Below are positions 37,064 through 44,399 of a stretch of DNA of 64,000 nt, one piece after another (the stretch's first letter is position 1; every line of letters begins with the position of its first letter). Under the pieces are notes generated by a model. It was not told the origin of the DNA and searched no databases. It worked only from the letters and a program-made list of their open reading frames with translations. The position numbers and the translations under genes are program-made. The DNA is from Neofusicoccum parvum (taxonomy: Eukaryota > Ascomycota > Dothideomycetes > Botryosphaeriales > Botryosphaeriaceae), in NCBI GenBank assembly GCA_020912385.1, contig CP087209.1, positions 1,116,001-1,180,000 of the forward strand. Direction: 5' to 3'.

Positions 37064-39424
37064 ATGCTGCGGCGCACCGGGCGACAGGCGTGGACATGCG
37101 CGCAGTGCCTGCGCCTGCAGCAGCGGAGATGCGGAAGCACCATCGCCGCAACCGCCGCCGCTGAAATCTCGCCCGCCAGCCGCGCCGCGCCCGGCCAGAA
37201 CCACGACGATCGCGTGCTGCGCCAAATCTTCGACTCGCCGCGATTCTGGAAGGACTTTTCCGCCAGCACCAAGCACCAGCCCCAAGCCGTGTCCCAGGGC
37301 CTCTTCCAGAACCGCTACCTCACCCGCCCGGAGGGCTTCCAGCACTTTGCCGAGGTCACGCTACAAAAATGCATGAAGATCGTGGACAAGGTGCTGGGCG
37401 CCAGCACCGTCGAGGAGTACAGAATGCTCGCGAGGGATCTTGACCGTCTGAGCGACCTGCTCTGTCGCGTCATTGACCTGGCCGACTTCGTGCGCTCGAC
37501 CCACCCGGACACGAAGATTCAGGCCGCTGCATCCCAGGCTTACGCCATCATGTTTGAATACATGAACCGGCTCAATACCACCACCGGATTGAACGACCAG
37601 CTGAAAAAGGCGGCTTCAATCCCCGAGGTCTGGGAGTCGTGGGGCGAGGAAGAACAGGTCGTCGCCCAAATCTTGATGAGAGACTTTTCCAAGTCGGCCA
37701 TAGACCTGCCCGACGAGACACGGCAGCGCTTTGTCGATCTTTCCAACGACATCACGCATACTGGGAACGACTTTGTCGACGGCATGGCGCCTGAAAAGCC
37801 GTACCTCAAATTCGACAGCAGCAGGATGAGGGGCATGGATCCCAACTTGGCAAAGAACTTGACCAGATGGGGCAAGGTCACGCTGCCAACGATAGGGCTG
37901 CCCGCGATGATGGCCTTGAGGACTGTTGAGGACCCCGATGTTAGGAGAGAGGTCTATGTGGCGAACCGAACTGCATCGAGGGTAAATATTTCTAGACTGG
38001 AGAGCATGTTGAAGAAAAGAGCAGAGCTTGCAAAGCTCTCTGGATACGACACTTTTGGGCACCTGGCATTGAGTGACAAGATGGCAGCAACTCCGGAAGC
38101 CGTGAATCAGTTCCTGGGGGCATTGATCGAGGACAATCACATCCAGGTCAACAATGAGCTCCAGGAGCTTCTGGAATTCAAGAAGTCCGACGCCCGAAAT
38201 GACAACTTCCCCGGCCGCTTGAACGCCTGGGACCGCGACTACTACACACAGCAACTTCTTTCTTCTCTCCGCACTCGCATTCGTTCTCCTGACTTCCTAT
38301 CTTCCTTCTTTTCCCTTGGCACTGTCATTCAAGGACTTTCTCGACTCTTCACTAGACTCTACGGTATCCGTCTTGTCCCACACGAGACACTACCAGGCGA
38401 GACCTGGAATTCCGATGTTAGACGACTGGATGTGGTTGATGAGAACGAGGGCCACATAGCTGTGGTTTACTGCGATCTTTTTTCTCGACCCGGCAAGAAT
38501 CCCAATCCTGCGCACTTCACTCTCCGCTGCTCTCGTCTTATCTCGGGCGAAGAAATCGCAGAGGCAGCTGAGACATCACATCCCTTCTCCTCCGCTATCG
38601 AAGCTGCTACGGATGGCATGGCGTCTGCCGCCAATCCCGCGGATAAGACTGGCAACTCGGTCTACCAGCTTCCCACTATTGCTTTGATCTGCGACTTCGA
38701 CACCGCCGGCCAGAGCCCACACAGCGCACGACCGACGCTCCTCTCCTTCCGCGAAGTGCAAACCCTCTTCCACGAAATGGGCCACGCGCTCCACTCCGTG
38801 TGCGGGCGCACGCGGCTCCAGAACGTCAGCGGCACGCGCTGCGCCACCGATTTCGCGGAGCTGCCGTCGGTGCTGATGGAGCACTTCGCGGCGGCGCCCG
38901 AGGTGCTCGGGCTCTTCGCGCGCCACTTCGAGACGGACGCGCCGCTGCCGTACCGCATGGTCGAGGAGCGCGTGGCCATCGACCGGCGCATGAGCGGCGC
39001 GGAGACGGAGGCCCAGATCCTGCTCGCCATGCTCGACCAGGCCTACCACTCGGCCCTGCCGCTCCAGCCCGGATTCGACTCCACGAGCACCTACCACGAC
39101 ATCTACAACGCCCACCAGACCGTCCCGGAGCCCGCCGGCACCGCTTGGCAGGGTTTCTTCGGCCACTTGTTCGGGTATGGCGCCACGTACTACTCGTACC
39201 TGTTCGACAGGGCGATTGCGGGCAAGGTGTGGAAGGACGTGTTCCAGGAGGGCCGGAAGAGCGTTGACAGGGAGGCGGGAGCGCGGTATAGAGAGGAGGT
39301 GCTGAGGTGGGGTGGGGGGAGGGATGGGTGGAGGTGCGTGGCGGGCGTGCTGGGAAGGGAGGAGTTAGCTGAGGGCGGAGAGGAGGCGATGAAGGAGGTG
39401 GGGAGGTGGGGCGTGCATGACTAG
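37064..39424 (+). CDS. OCT1: mitochondrial intermediate peptidase (M3 family), 786 aa
   Basis: Single exon. The Arg-rich presequence [20 protein letters not shown] targets the matrix. The long helical M3 body is followed by the catalytic zinc motif [10 protein letters not shown] (HExxH at residues 570-574), with the downstream glutamate helix and the conserved [20 protein letters not shown]. The late domain has DQAYHSALP and [16 protein letters not shown], as in yeast Oct1 (about 770 aa). The enzyme removes an octapeptide from a subset of imported precursors after MPP cleavage. The middle (about 38.2-38.65 kb) has lower GC at third positions than the two ends. Confidence 0.95.
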
Positions 39425-40197: not shown

Positions 40198-42777
40198 TTA
40201 GGGCCAAGATATCCCTGTCCACGTACGAAATTGAGATCGCTTGGCGCTGGATAAATGTGGATGGACACCGCATGAAGCTAGAATTTTGGGGGAATGTATT
40301 TGAGAAGCTCCTTTCTCTCTTGCTCGTCTTTTAGGTAAGAATGATATCACCCTTTCAATCAGACGACGTCTCCATGGAATAGATTTGCGGTTACTTGCAA
40401 GCCGACCTTCGAATTCTGGAAGCTGGTGGTGATACTCCGTGCCATGTGCTCTCATGATACTTACCATTTCTTCGAGCGTTTTTGCGGCTTTGTCAGGCCG
40501 ACCGACCTTCTCATATATACTAGCAAGCCAGGACTGAGTGGCAAGAATACTAGCGTAATACGGGGGGTCGATCTCTTTTTCTGTCCGTAATACGTTTTCG
40601 AACAGACTCAGGGCCTGTTTTGTTTCTTGAGCCTCAAAGTAAGCTCTTGCCAGCATATGCTCGGAAGACAAACGGAAAGGATGTTTTGGCTCAAGCCTTT
40701 TCTTGTTTACATCAGAAATTCGCTTGAAGTGACGAATAGCGTCCGATGCTTGGCCCTTCTTCAAATATGCCCTTGCAAGCTCATCTTCTGATTTCAAAAC
40801 GGCCGAATCGTCTTCATGGAAGCTTCTTTTTTGCATTTTGAGAGCTTCTTCCAAGTTTGATATGGCTTCGGAATGCTGCCCATTTGCCAAATTTGCTTTT
40901 CCGATCCCTTGAAGAGAAGATGCACGTTCGGGATCGTTTTCCGGCAATTTTCTTTCAATTTCTTGAATTTTGCGCCAAAGTTCCAAAGAGGAAGACAGTC
41001 GACGAAGATTTGCGAGGTTTTGTGCTCTTTCTTTGTACAGTTTCAATGTTGCAAGGTCTTTTGGATTGTCGGGGTCCTTCTGATGTCTTTTGAAAACATG
41101 AGATATGTAATTCTCGAGCTTCACATGTTGGCCCAGCGCAGCGAGAATCTTTGCACACCTGTAGCTGATCTTTTTTACCAGTGGCATGCGATCTTCTGGA
41201 AATACATGGCCCATTTCGTTGTCCACCAGAGAAAGGATATGTGGCTGAAGCTGCCGTTCGAAATCTAGCCAGGTTCTGGAATAGAGTGGTGCATTGTCCG
41301 GAGATGATTCTGTGGAAAGAGCCATGATCGCCCCAGCCGTAAGACATGCCATTGTTTGAAGGTCTGAAGGAAGCCTGTCTTTGGCCCAAGCATGCACGAG
41401 GGGATGCATGGATACCATCGCTGTACCACTCTCATCCTCCGTCTTTCTGATCAACGCGAGAGAGTGGAGGCGATTCAGAGCTCTTTTCAGGCGTCCGTCT
41501 TCCCATTGGAATGATTGGAATGAGAAATATCTGGAGACTTCGCGGTGGTGGTCTTCCTCTAGGCACTGGACATCCTGGCGGTGTATGTCGACTTCTGAAA
41601 TGGACGAAGCATTGGTAACATTACATGAGCCTTCCCAGGCTTCTTTGAAAATTTCCACTGGAAGGCAAGTATAGTTGAACATTGACAGGATATTCAGGAG
41701 ACATAACGCATCATGAGCCACCGCATCTCCTTTAGCAGATTCCAGTTGACGCGCTGAAGTATCGAAGGTTGCATATACATGGCGATAGTCTATGTCCGAT
41801 TTTCGTGGCTTGAATCCGAGTATCTGGCGACGCCGTTCTCGATGTAGGTCAGGATACTCTTTCAGCTCGCAGCAGTTCTCTGATACATAAGCACCAGCAT
41901 GAATCAGCGCAAGAGGATGTGATTGTAGAAGGTCAACAATGGTCCTTGCATCTTCTTCGTGTGAAGTATTTTGTCCGACGTTGGCCGCATCAAGGAAAAG
42001 TTTTATCCCATGTTTGGGATCAAGAGCTTTCACTTCAATGGACCCTATTGTGTTGTATTCCTGGGAAGCTCCAGGATTTCGAGAATTCAGTAATACGGTT
42101 GAATGAGACCCAGCAGGAGGGAAATATCTGCGGTAGGAGAAATTTGTATCATCCGCGTTGTCGAAGATGATGAGAAATTTCTTTCCGATATTTCCTAGTT
42201 CGCGAAGAGCTTCGTCGACGTCACAGTCGCCAGATCCGGGGTAGAGCGTGTGGAACAAGCTTTTGAGATCTTCTTCGACGGTTGCCGAGTCATTTGCGCA
42301 TATCCAGAAGATTCCCCAGAAGCTGAATAACAATTAGCTCTAAGTACGAGATAAATTACAGCTCACTTACTCGTCTTGCACCCGCTCTATAATATTCAAG
42401 CAAATCTCGCTTTTGCCAATACCACCCATGCCAGTGATGACATACACCTTCTGCTTTGTGGTTTCAGATCGTAATTCATCTTGAATTTTAGGCATGATGT
42501 CATCACGACCGAGGAAACGATTGCTTGTATGCCTTGGTATGTTCCAATGGAAACGTTCCTGGGTAGTTGGATGCAAAATGAAAGATCCGCCATGATTGAT
42601 GTTGAACCAAGGGTCGGCCAGATTAACTCGGTTGTGAAAGATGTTGGTCTCTGTGGGCAAGTAGTACAAGGATGTATGGTTCTCGACAGGCAATGAAACA
42701 CCTTGGAAATTGGAAGATCTAGATTGTTGGGAAACAGACCCGAAGGACTGTTTGATATGACGATGCGTGTTGGCCAT
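40198..42777 (-). CDS. STAND/NLR receptor: N-terminal short motif, NB-ARC, TPR repeats (843 aa)
   Basis: Exons 42777-42371 and 42322-40198, joined by a 48-nt intron (GTAAGT...TTCAG) that completes FWGIFWICAND. Residues 1-80 have no effector domain, but residues 8-26 carry the pattern IxQSFG-x6-RxxNxxG, shared with the divergent neighbour. The NB-ARC module has FLGRDDIM, Walker A GMGGIGKS (116-123), Walker B FLIIFDNADD (185-194), STVLLNSRNP, SHPLALIHAGAY and an MHD-like MHPLVHAWAKDRL (about 440). TPR-like repeats span about 510-720 (for example GKANLANGQHSEAISNLEEA and LARAYFEAQETKQALSLFEN), then a basic tail. It should act as a nucleotide-dependent oligomerising sensor in fungal non-self recognition or cell death. 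The ligand is unknown. Confidence 0.9.
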
Positions 42778-43384
42778 ACTAATGATATTGACGGCATTTC
42801 GACCTACGAGCTGACACCTGCAGATGTCAGAGTATTTGATTGACTGCTTAAAGACTCCGGTTACACTAGAAAACCGGCTTCTCGATTGTATCTGTACGAA
42901 TGCTTCCTCTGTACGACCTGAAGTCGGGAACGACTGGGCTAGAATGTCGTCATAAGAGTTTCACGTCGGAACCACGACGAGAAATTGACGTGCAAATTCC
43001 TAAACTGATATAAGCTGCACCCACGATAGGCGGGGTCAGCAGGTCAACCGGCGGCATCAATTGGATCATATCACAGCCTTGCGGCGAGTTATGCATGCTC
43101 CTCTTTGGTGGGGCTCGCACGACCCCATGAAAAAGTGGTGGTGGCAAGGCTGAATTATTTGCAAGCGAGCAAGGCTGATTACAACGCTTTGCATATGCAG
43201 TAATACGCGCCTCATCTCTCGCCAGCTGGCCCAAATCCATTAAATCCTTGCACCTGTCCTCGAAAAGCTGATATTTGCTGACCACCCCCCGAAACGCCAC
43301 ATTCGACACTCTTCACATGACTACTACCTTACATCTCCTCCGGGACGGATTCGAATATCAGGGACATCATAGCCAGCCTCACTG
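42778..43384. promoter_or_regulatory. divergent promoter of the NLR / HeLo-like pair
   Basis: 607 bp between the ATGs of the two divergent genes. No overlapping gene is supported. Shared control is inferred from geometry. Confidence 0.5.
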
Positions 43385-44399
43385 ATGTCAGACCCCCTCA
43401 GCATCACTGCGAGCCTGATCGCCATCCTCGGGGCGACACAAGCTCTCTGCGAGTTCATCGCACGCGTCCGCGACGCCCCACAATTTCTCCAAGATGCCAA
43501 GGGCGACGTAAAAGCCACGGAAATTGTCATCGAAGACCTCCTTAAGTACACCCAAACAGCTGGTTCAACATCAACAAACACCCAATATCTATTAAGCCAA
43601 GAATCAGCTCTGTCAGTAGTGCTATCACACTGTCAAAACAAATGCCAAAAGCTTCAAAAGAAGCTTAGTAAGTGCATTAAACACTCCGAAAAGGGTGGGA
43701 TACGTTTCCGCGATCGGCTTCTATCAGCTTTGAAGGAAAAGGATATTGTCAAGTTTCGAGAGGAGCTTGCATCCGATAGGGACATAATCAGCCTCCGAGT
43801 CTCCATCTTGAACATGTAAGTTCCCATATGGCAAGTTGAAATATTAAAGCCTTATATCTTATTTGTACCTTCGTAGCCTCAGCACCTCCGAAAACCACAC
43901 TATCCTCCTCGACTTCCGGAAAAACACCGAGATTGCAGTACGTCACATCACGAGCAAGCTCAACGACATCCAAGTCACCATCTCAAACTTGGAAAATATT
44001 TCAGGCGCATATGACAAGGCGGTAGGAAAGGCATTGCAAGAAGAAAGAGCAAGCCTTGATAGGAAGCTCCGTGTCTGCGACGAAAATATGTGTGCCGCCA
44101 AAGAATCCCCAAAATTCACCCAGAAGTGGGAGGATACGAACGTCAAAACAAGGGGGCAAAATTATCAAGGAATGGAAATTACCCAGCAGCCACAGAATAT
44201 CGAACAAAGCTTTGGCAAAACAACAATTGAGGAACGGGCAATGAACGCGACCGGAGGATTCTCTGGTCCAATATGGCAGAAATTTGTGGATGGAAACCCG
44301 GCTGAGGCTGGTCAGGGCCAATCGGAAGAAACGAGTGCCCTCCGGGGCCAGGGAGCACCTCTCAGTGAAAAAAAAACCAACAACAAGACTCCGTCTTAA
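43385..44399 (+). CDS. HeLo-like (SesA/HELL-type) helical domain protein with candidate amyloid-motif tail (317 aa)
   Basis: Exons 43385-43815 and 43877-44399; the 61-nt intron has GTAAGT and CGTAG. The N-terminus MSDPLSITASLIAILGATQA, followed by ALCEFIARVRDAPQF, is the typical first helices of the fungal STAND N-terminal HeLo-like domain family (Pfam Helo_like_N/SesA type). The helical bundle continues to about residue 200 (CQNKCQKLQKKLSKC, then a Leu/Ile-rich helix). The tail from about 225 is Gln/Asn/Gly-rich and disordered, with IxQSFG-x6-RxxNxxG at residues 252-270 matching the adjacent receptor. HeLo-like domains such as HET-S and HELLP permeabilise membranes when their C-terminal motif is templated into amyloid. 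By analogy this would be the executioner of the pair. Confidence 0.85.

Follow-up and report, generated by a model that had tools for sequence, protein, structure and literature searches.

In a 64,000-nucleotide stretch of the Neofusicoccum parvum genome (contig CP087209.1, positions 1,116,001 to 1,180,000; the window), two divergently transcribed genes encode a NOD-like receptor (NLR) and a HeLo-like protein, and three related copies of a short motif are divided between them, one at the N-terminus of the receptor and two in the C-terminal tail of its neighbor. The gene structures, the domains, the divergent adjacency and the relatedness of the three copies are observed directly. We consider it probable that the pair is a two-gene cell-death switch that works by amyloid signaling on the plan of NWD2/HET-S, with a motif that would be an HRAM after strong divergence, or else a new class of HRAM-like layout. 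The arrangement is that of fungal NLR/effector pairs: an NLR devoid of an effector domain adjoins a putative effector gene, and the same motif is present at the NLR N-terminus and at the effector C-terminus.

The receptor gene runs on the minus strand from 42777 to 40198, with a single intron, and encodes 843 amino acids. Residues 92-284 match the Pfam NB-ARC model (E 1.4e-12), several TPR models match as well, and the N-terminal portion ahead of NB-ARC is only about 90 residues long, with no effector domain recognized by Pfam. The HeLo-like gene (plus strand, 43385-44399, single intron) encodes 317 amino acids ending in a polar tail. Its residues 3-212 match PF17111 (PigL_N) at E 6.9e-20, with 71.8 bits against a gathering score of 27.2; this model, also named Helo_like_N, corresponds to what papers on fungal cell death call the "HeLo-like" domain (PMC9815663). 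From this domain we infer that the protein is a cell-death effector. Residues 7-25 are its most hydrophobic 19-residue stretch (mean Kyte-Doolittle 1.7), as would be expected for a membrane-attacking first helix. An earlier note on this DNA, made from the sequence alone, had described a divergent pair of a HeLo-like domain protein and a receptor without an effector domain; the gene models and the Pfam matches (PF17111, NB-ARC, TPR) bear it out.

The same note had aligned receptor residues 8-26 (copy r0) with HeLo-like residues 252-270 (copy r2). The match is exact on recheck: eight of 19 residues are identical without a gap, and the codons mostly differ between the genes, as had been stated, with the same codon at one of the eight common residues and different codons at seven. 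An NxQG segment at HeLo-like residues 239-242 had been mentioned as well. The segment is present, and it turns out to close a complete second copy (r1, residues 224-242) that had been missed. The shared motif in a candidate signaling pair stands, and the single effector copy gives way to two. In the gap-free MAFFT alignment of r0, r1 and r2, Q3, R13, N16 and G19 do not vary and position 5 is always aromatic, giving the common pattern [I/F]-x-Q-x-[F/W]-x7-R-x2-N-x2-G; the pairwise BLOSUM62 sums are 40, 29 and 24. The loop between r1 and r2 has nine residues, and r2 is followed by a glycine/aromatic segment, GGFSGPIWQKF. Copy r0 is low in charge (no D or E, one K and one R), and r1 and r2 carry opposite charges at positions 7 and 11 and like charges at 13.

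Comparison with shuffled sequences argues for the relatedness of the copies. In the shuffled-tail check suggested by the earlier note, equal matches were rare: the best ungapped BLOSUM62 segment (42) was reached in 0.1% of 1000 shuffled tails, and the identity of eight in 19 in 0.9%. The score of the r0-r2 pair alone was reached in 2/3000, 4/3000 and 5/5000 shuffles. Copy r1 was spotted while the second half of the motif was sought elsewhere in the tail, and because it was found after the fact it was put to several separate tests. Scored against r0 and r2, it is the best window outside r2, at 53 with the next at 13 (P 0.00055, 20,000 shuffles). Shuffling gave rise to the pattern Qx[FWY]x7RxxNxxG once in 20,000 trials. 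Among all windows, r0, r1 and r2 themselves form the top-scoring triple, with a sum of 93 that none of 3000 composition-keeping shuffles reached in either of two runs, and none of 3000 had all three pairs at 24 or more. Leave-one-out BLOSUM scans over 228,547 windows point the same way: r0 ranked first by its score against r1 and r2, r2 first against r0 and r1, and r1 second against r0 and r2. The scanned set was without the seven C4-region loci and the motif-bearing pieces of the window, had two spliced proteins added and included the fungal relatives of the receptor. The only window to outrank r1 was locus L050, which was in the set as the one other genome match of the receptor N-terminus query.

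The same genome provides a positive control. PF17046 (Ses_B) is the model of the PP motif, as given in PMC12261475, and it has four matches in the genome, divided equally between contigs C1 and C3. At C1:609516-611076 (L053, L055), a HeLo protein (PF14479, E 2.4e-51) carries a C-terminal PP motif (E 4.8e-10); on the opposite strand, about 1.4 kb from motif to motif, an NLR carries an N-terminal PP motif (E 9.6e-7) beside an NB-ARC hit. The pair statistic is 60 for this C1 pair (0/5000 shuffles) against 40 for the window pair (the 5/5000 given above). Three cross-pairs between the window and PP proteins, including the C1 and C3 HeLo tails, scored 15, 16 and 20, values that do not stand out from shuffles. 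Judged by its sequences, this fungus has a receptor-effector pair of established type, and on the pair statistics the window pair behaves alike, weaker for any two copies and with a third copy in addition. At C3:3274581-3275269 (L054, L056), two PF17046 matches lie about 0.5 kb apart on the same strand, one of them ending a HeLo-like frame by eye.

The second effector copy bears on the claim that the motif is new and does not resemble HRAM. Novelty stays plausible; the exclusion of HRAM is not established, since the second copy gives the pair the HRAM layout and the motif may be a very diverged HRAM. As described in PMC4518210, HRAM occurs twice in the effector and once in the NLR, with a loop of 6-18 residues; charges are opposed from repeat to repeat, the NLR copy is less charged, and glycines and aromatics follow the repeats. 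The window pair shows two effector copies, one receptor copy and its loop of nine, and the sparsely charged r0 and the glycine/aromatic segment after r2 agree as well. The positional preferences given in the same source are Gly19, hydrophobic residues at 5, 8, 10, 16 and 18, positive charge at 15 and Asn, Gln or His at 3, with exceptions such as Gln18 in HRAM4 and Gln16 in HRAM5. All three copies have Gly19, Gln3 and, at the hydrophobic position 5, an aromatic residue; position 8 is hydrophobic in one copy and position 10 in two, while Arg/Lys15, hydrophobic 16 and hydrophobic 18 are found in none. Each copy agrees with four of the eight rules, a number also reached by other windows of the two termini, and one window scores five. 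The copies have the invariant Arg13 and Asn16, and their shared core is 19 residues long against the 21 of the described HRAM motif. These comparisons were made with published rules and Pfam models, not with known HRAM sequences. PF11558 (HET-s) and PF17108 found no match in the termini or the copies; this is a weak test, as PF11558 matches just 38 of the 155 HRAM proteins published in PMC4518210, so that a missed model means little. Neither model matched genome-wide, where no PF11558 control rang and absence is therefore not shown.

Known pairs make the comparison concrete. With NWD2/HET-S of Podospora anserina and HRAM1-5, as described in PMC4518210 and PMC5485727, the window pair has in common the adjacent genes, a HeLo-related effector whose C-terminus holds two repeats, an NLR whose N-terminus holds one, a loop within 6-18 residues, Gly19 and a polar position 3; it differs from NWD2/HET-S in the receptor, NACHT/WD there and NB-ARC/TPR here. 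In HELLF/FNT1 of P. anserina, too, an NLR is the neighbor of a HeLo-like effector that carries two repeats, and PMC7889193 assigns this system to HRAM5; the HRAM5 signature is absent here, and the two are set apart by signature, not by sequence alignment. We therefore do not file the motif as HRAM, yet hold that it would work like one: the layout fits, positions 15, 16 and 18 fail, and other windows agree with as many rules.

Within the amyloid reading, a true but diverged HRAM, folding into the same beta-solenoid and forming a further sub-class beside HRAM1-5, is a serious candidate that we would stop short of calling probable. It accounts for the layout, the loop length, Gln3 (the residue of HRAM2), aromatic 5, Gly19, the aromatics after the repeats and the opposite charges at 7 and 11, and the weak PF11558 test does not contradict it; the positions that fail in all three copies, and the other windows with four or five rules, argue against it. 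We also entertain, tentatively, a motif family separate from HRAM that converged on the HET-s layout, with the signature Gln3-aromatic5-Arg13-Asn16-Gly19 and serving a private, non-cross-seeding death pathway alongside the PP pathways of this fungus. A new class of HET-s layout, if true, would be a test of the sequence change that a two-rung solenoid can bear and of whether parallel death pathways stay insulated in one cell.

According to PMC12261475 there are four fungal motif families (HRAM, PP, sigma, PUASM) and a provisional GDQN. The Pfam models, including those of HET-s, PP (PF17046) and sigma (PF17106), match neither the two termini nor the copies, and PF17106 has no match genome-wide. 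The PUASM pattern FxGxGxQxxGxGxF is absent, and the PUASM effector is PNP_UDP where here it is PF17111; the GxQxG segment of PP and the start of the printed GDQN pattern NxxxGxQYxxxGxGDQN are absent from the pair. In HELLP/PNT1 of P. anserina, a PP system, the neighbor of the HeLo-like effector is an NB-ARC/TPR receptor whose N-terminal motif is short (as described in PMC7889193), as here; PP as described in PMC5485727 and PMC4518210 has GxQxG and a single effector copy, against two copies and no GxQxG here. The GDQN pair of Fusarium oxysporum Fo5176 joins an NLR N-terminus to the C-terminus of a SesA-domain protein and is given in PMC12261475 for a single species; the window pair, too, is seen in one species. 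Unnamed ascomycete motifs (NLR34, PF01048_015 and others, of which PMC9815663 gives logos only) may include this one. The same pattern was not found in the papers searched, a weak result as the motif lists lie in supplementary tables outside the search. Pairs of this kind are easily overlooked: by the limits given in PMC4518210, the HRAM survey covered proteins of at most 310 amino acids and their last 80 residues, and the effector here has 317, with r1 starting 94 residues from its end. The 2022 screen used clusters with a minimum of 20 sequences.

In the proposed switch, the TPR repeats of the receptor would sense a cue and the NB-ARC domain would oligomerize, as members of these families are expected to do. 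The clustered N-terminal r0 copies would then nucleate a short cross-beta fold, which would template r1-r2 in the HeLo-like tail into the same fold; this step is suggested by the motif that the two proteins share, once in the receptor and twice in the effector. By analogy with HET-S and HELLP, templating would free the N-terminal hydrophobic helix for membrane attack and cell death.

The results that weigh against this switch concern the predicted structure, the missing HRAM positions described above and the strength of the motif statistics. AlphaFold2 without an alignment gave no strands for the tail (pLDDT, its predicted local confidence score, 55) and helices for receptor exon 1 (pLDDT 47); both models were judged unusable. 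The strandless, low-confidence tail and the polar motif would suit homologous copies that act as a non-amyloid homotypic docking motif, for example a linear motif bound by a third protein, through which the receptor recruits the effector. We think this unlikely: PMC5485727 and PMC9815663 describe the N- and C-terminal motifs shared within fungal NLR/effector pairs as amyloid, one copy against two with a loop and an aromatic tail is the HRAM layout, and a PP pair is present in the same genome.

On the statistical side, r1 is identical to r0 at only five of 19 positions, and likewise to r2. From r2 alone, 14 other windows score at least as high as r1, and profile hidden Markov models built from any two copies do not have the third among their top seven domain hits. 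Decoy pairs made of pieces of the genome's own open reading frames, a harder null than shuffles, were drawn from frames of at least 200 amino acids with the seven C4-region loci and QSFG-bearing frames left out (146 frames in the raw runs). Raw decoys reached the triple sum in 91/3000 and 85/3000 cases, the pair score in 27/3000 and 19/3000 and the all-three-pairs score in 20/3000; the 12 printed of these 20 are, by eye, tandem-repeat or proline-, arginine- or serine-rich frames. When scaled by shuffling (40 shuffles per decoy, 600 for the real pair), decoys beat the all-three z (6.0) in 3/1500 cases and the pair z (4.9) in 7/1500. Lastly, protein-database searches found no orthologue of the pair, which leaves one pair in one species and therefore no evidence from conservation. 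A chance likeness between polar, disordered protein ends, favored by short copies, the low identity of r1, biased composition, the high raw decoys and the missed third copy, is nonetheless very improbable given the triple score in shuffles, the leave-one-out ranks, the failing cross-pairs and the three scaled decoys above the all-three z, whose tails are tandem repeats by eye.

Searches for further copies and relatives returned little. Whole-genome queries with the receptor N-terminus and the effector tail found their own gene and one weak match each (E 0.18 and 0.28), neither in a receptor-like or effector-like gene by eye; the C10 match L050 (IDQSWGGVKEFKAPSNVTG) is part of a long open frame resembling a glycoside hydrolase (by eye), and the match at C1:463429 looks like noise; both were rejected. 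The idea of a motif common to the PigL_N proteins or NLRs of this genome was also dropped, with no match at threshold beyond the three copies and L050; the scan covered mostly 1.5 kb flanks around 12 PigL_N and nine NB-ARC hits, so that tails and N-termini may be cut. Queried against its own genome, the full HeLo-like protein gave a single weak relative (E 0.006). In the protein database, neither the whole protein (at E 0.01, 1789 candidates) nor its tail (at E 10, four candidates) had a match; in the PDB the tail had none, the whole protein eight implausible ones (best E 0.012) and the three-copy profile one at E 0.21. An NCBIfam search gave nothing sensible.

Receptor residues 1-200 retrieved four fungal NLRs from the protein database. 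Two have an annotated N-terminal effector domain, SesA in P0001 and PNP_UDP in P0003, where the receptor has the motif alone; P0002 starts within NB-ARC, and the long N-terminus of P0004 bears no Pfam annotation. The C13 paralogue has hydrolase-like sequence upstream (by eye). The SesA and PNP_UDP domains are consistent with modular receptors in which a motif has been exchanged for an effector domain or the reverse. Between 42777 and the nearest upstream stop the receptor gene has no in-frame ATG; a 119-residue minus-strand open frame in the intergenic gap, considered as an upstream effector exon, lacks a Pfam match and was rejected, and a small spliced exon may lie upstream of exon 1. A Q/N/G-rich stretch (GGTQNYNNSTGNQNN) separates the SesA and NB-ARC domains of P0001 (Trichophyton), at about residues 147-178; by eye it resembles the printed GDQN motif, and it sits in a receptor already equipped with an effector domain.

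Table 1 Features of the receptor/HeLo-like locus (positions in the window)
Feature	Position	Strand	Basis or remark
Receptor exon 2 (remainder of NB-ARC, TPR repeats)	40198..42322	-	gene model and Pfam
Receptor intron (GT...AG)	42323..42370	-	gene model
Receptor exon 1 (short N-terminus, start of NB-ARC)	42371..42777	-	gene model and Pfam
Motif copy r0, receptor residues 8-26, IKQSFGSVSQQSRSSNFQG	42700..42756	-	ungapped comparison, leave-one-out
Intergenic region between the divergent start codons	42778..43384	.	607 bases
HeLo-like exon 1 (most of PF17111 domain)	43385..43815	+	gene model and Pfam
HeLo-like intron (GT...AG)	43816..43876	+	a second AG 6 bases on would give 315 aa, two residues fewer
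HeLo-like exon 2 (end of domain, polar tail)	43877..44399	+	gene model and Pfam
Motif copy r1, HeLo-like residues 224-242, FTQKWEDTNVKTRGQNYQG	44115..44171	+	r0+r2 score, leave-one-out
Motif copy r2, HeLo-like residues 252-270, IEQSFGKTTIEERAMNATG	44199..44255	+	ungapped comparison, leave-one-out

The window also holds, at 37064-39424 on the plus strand, a peptidase family M3 gene in a single open frame (Pfam E 4.5e-118), an ordinary neighbor of the pair.

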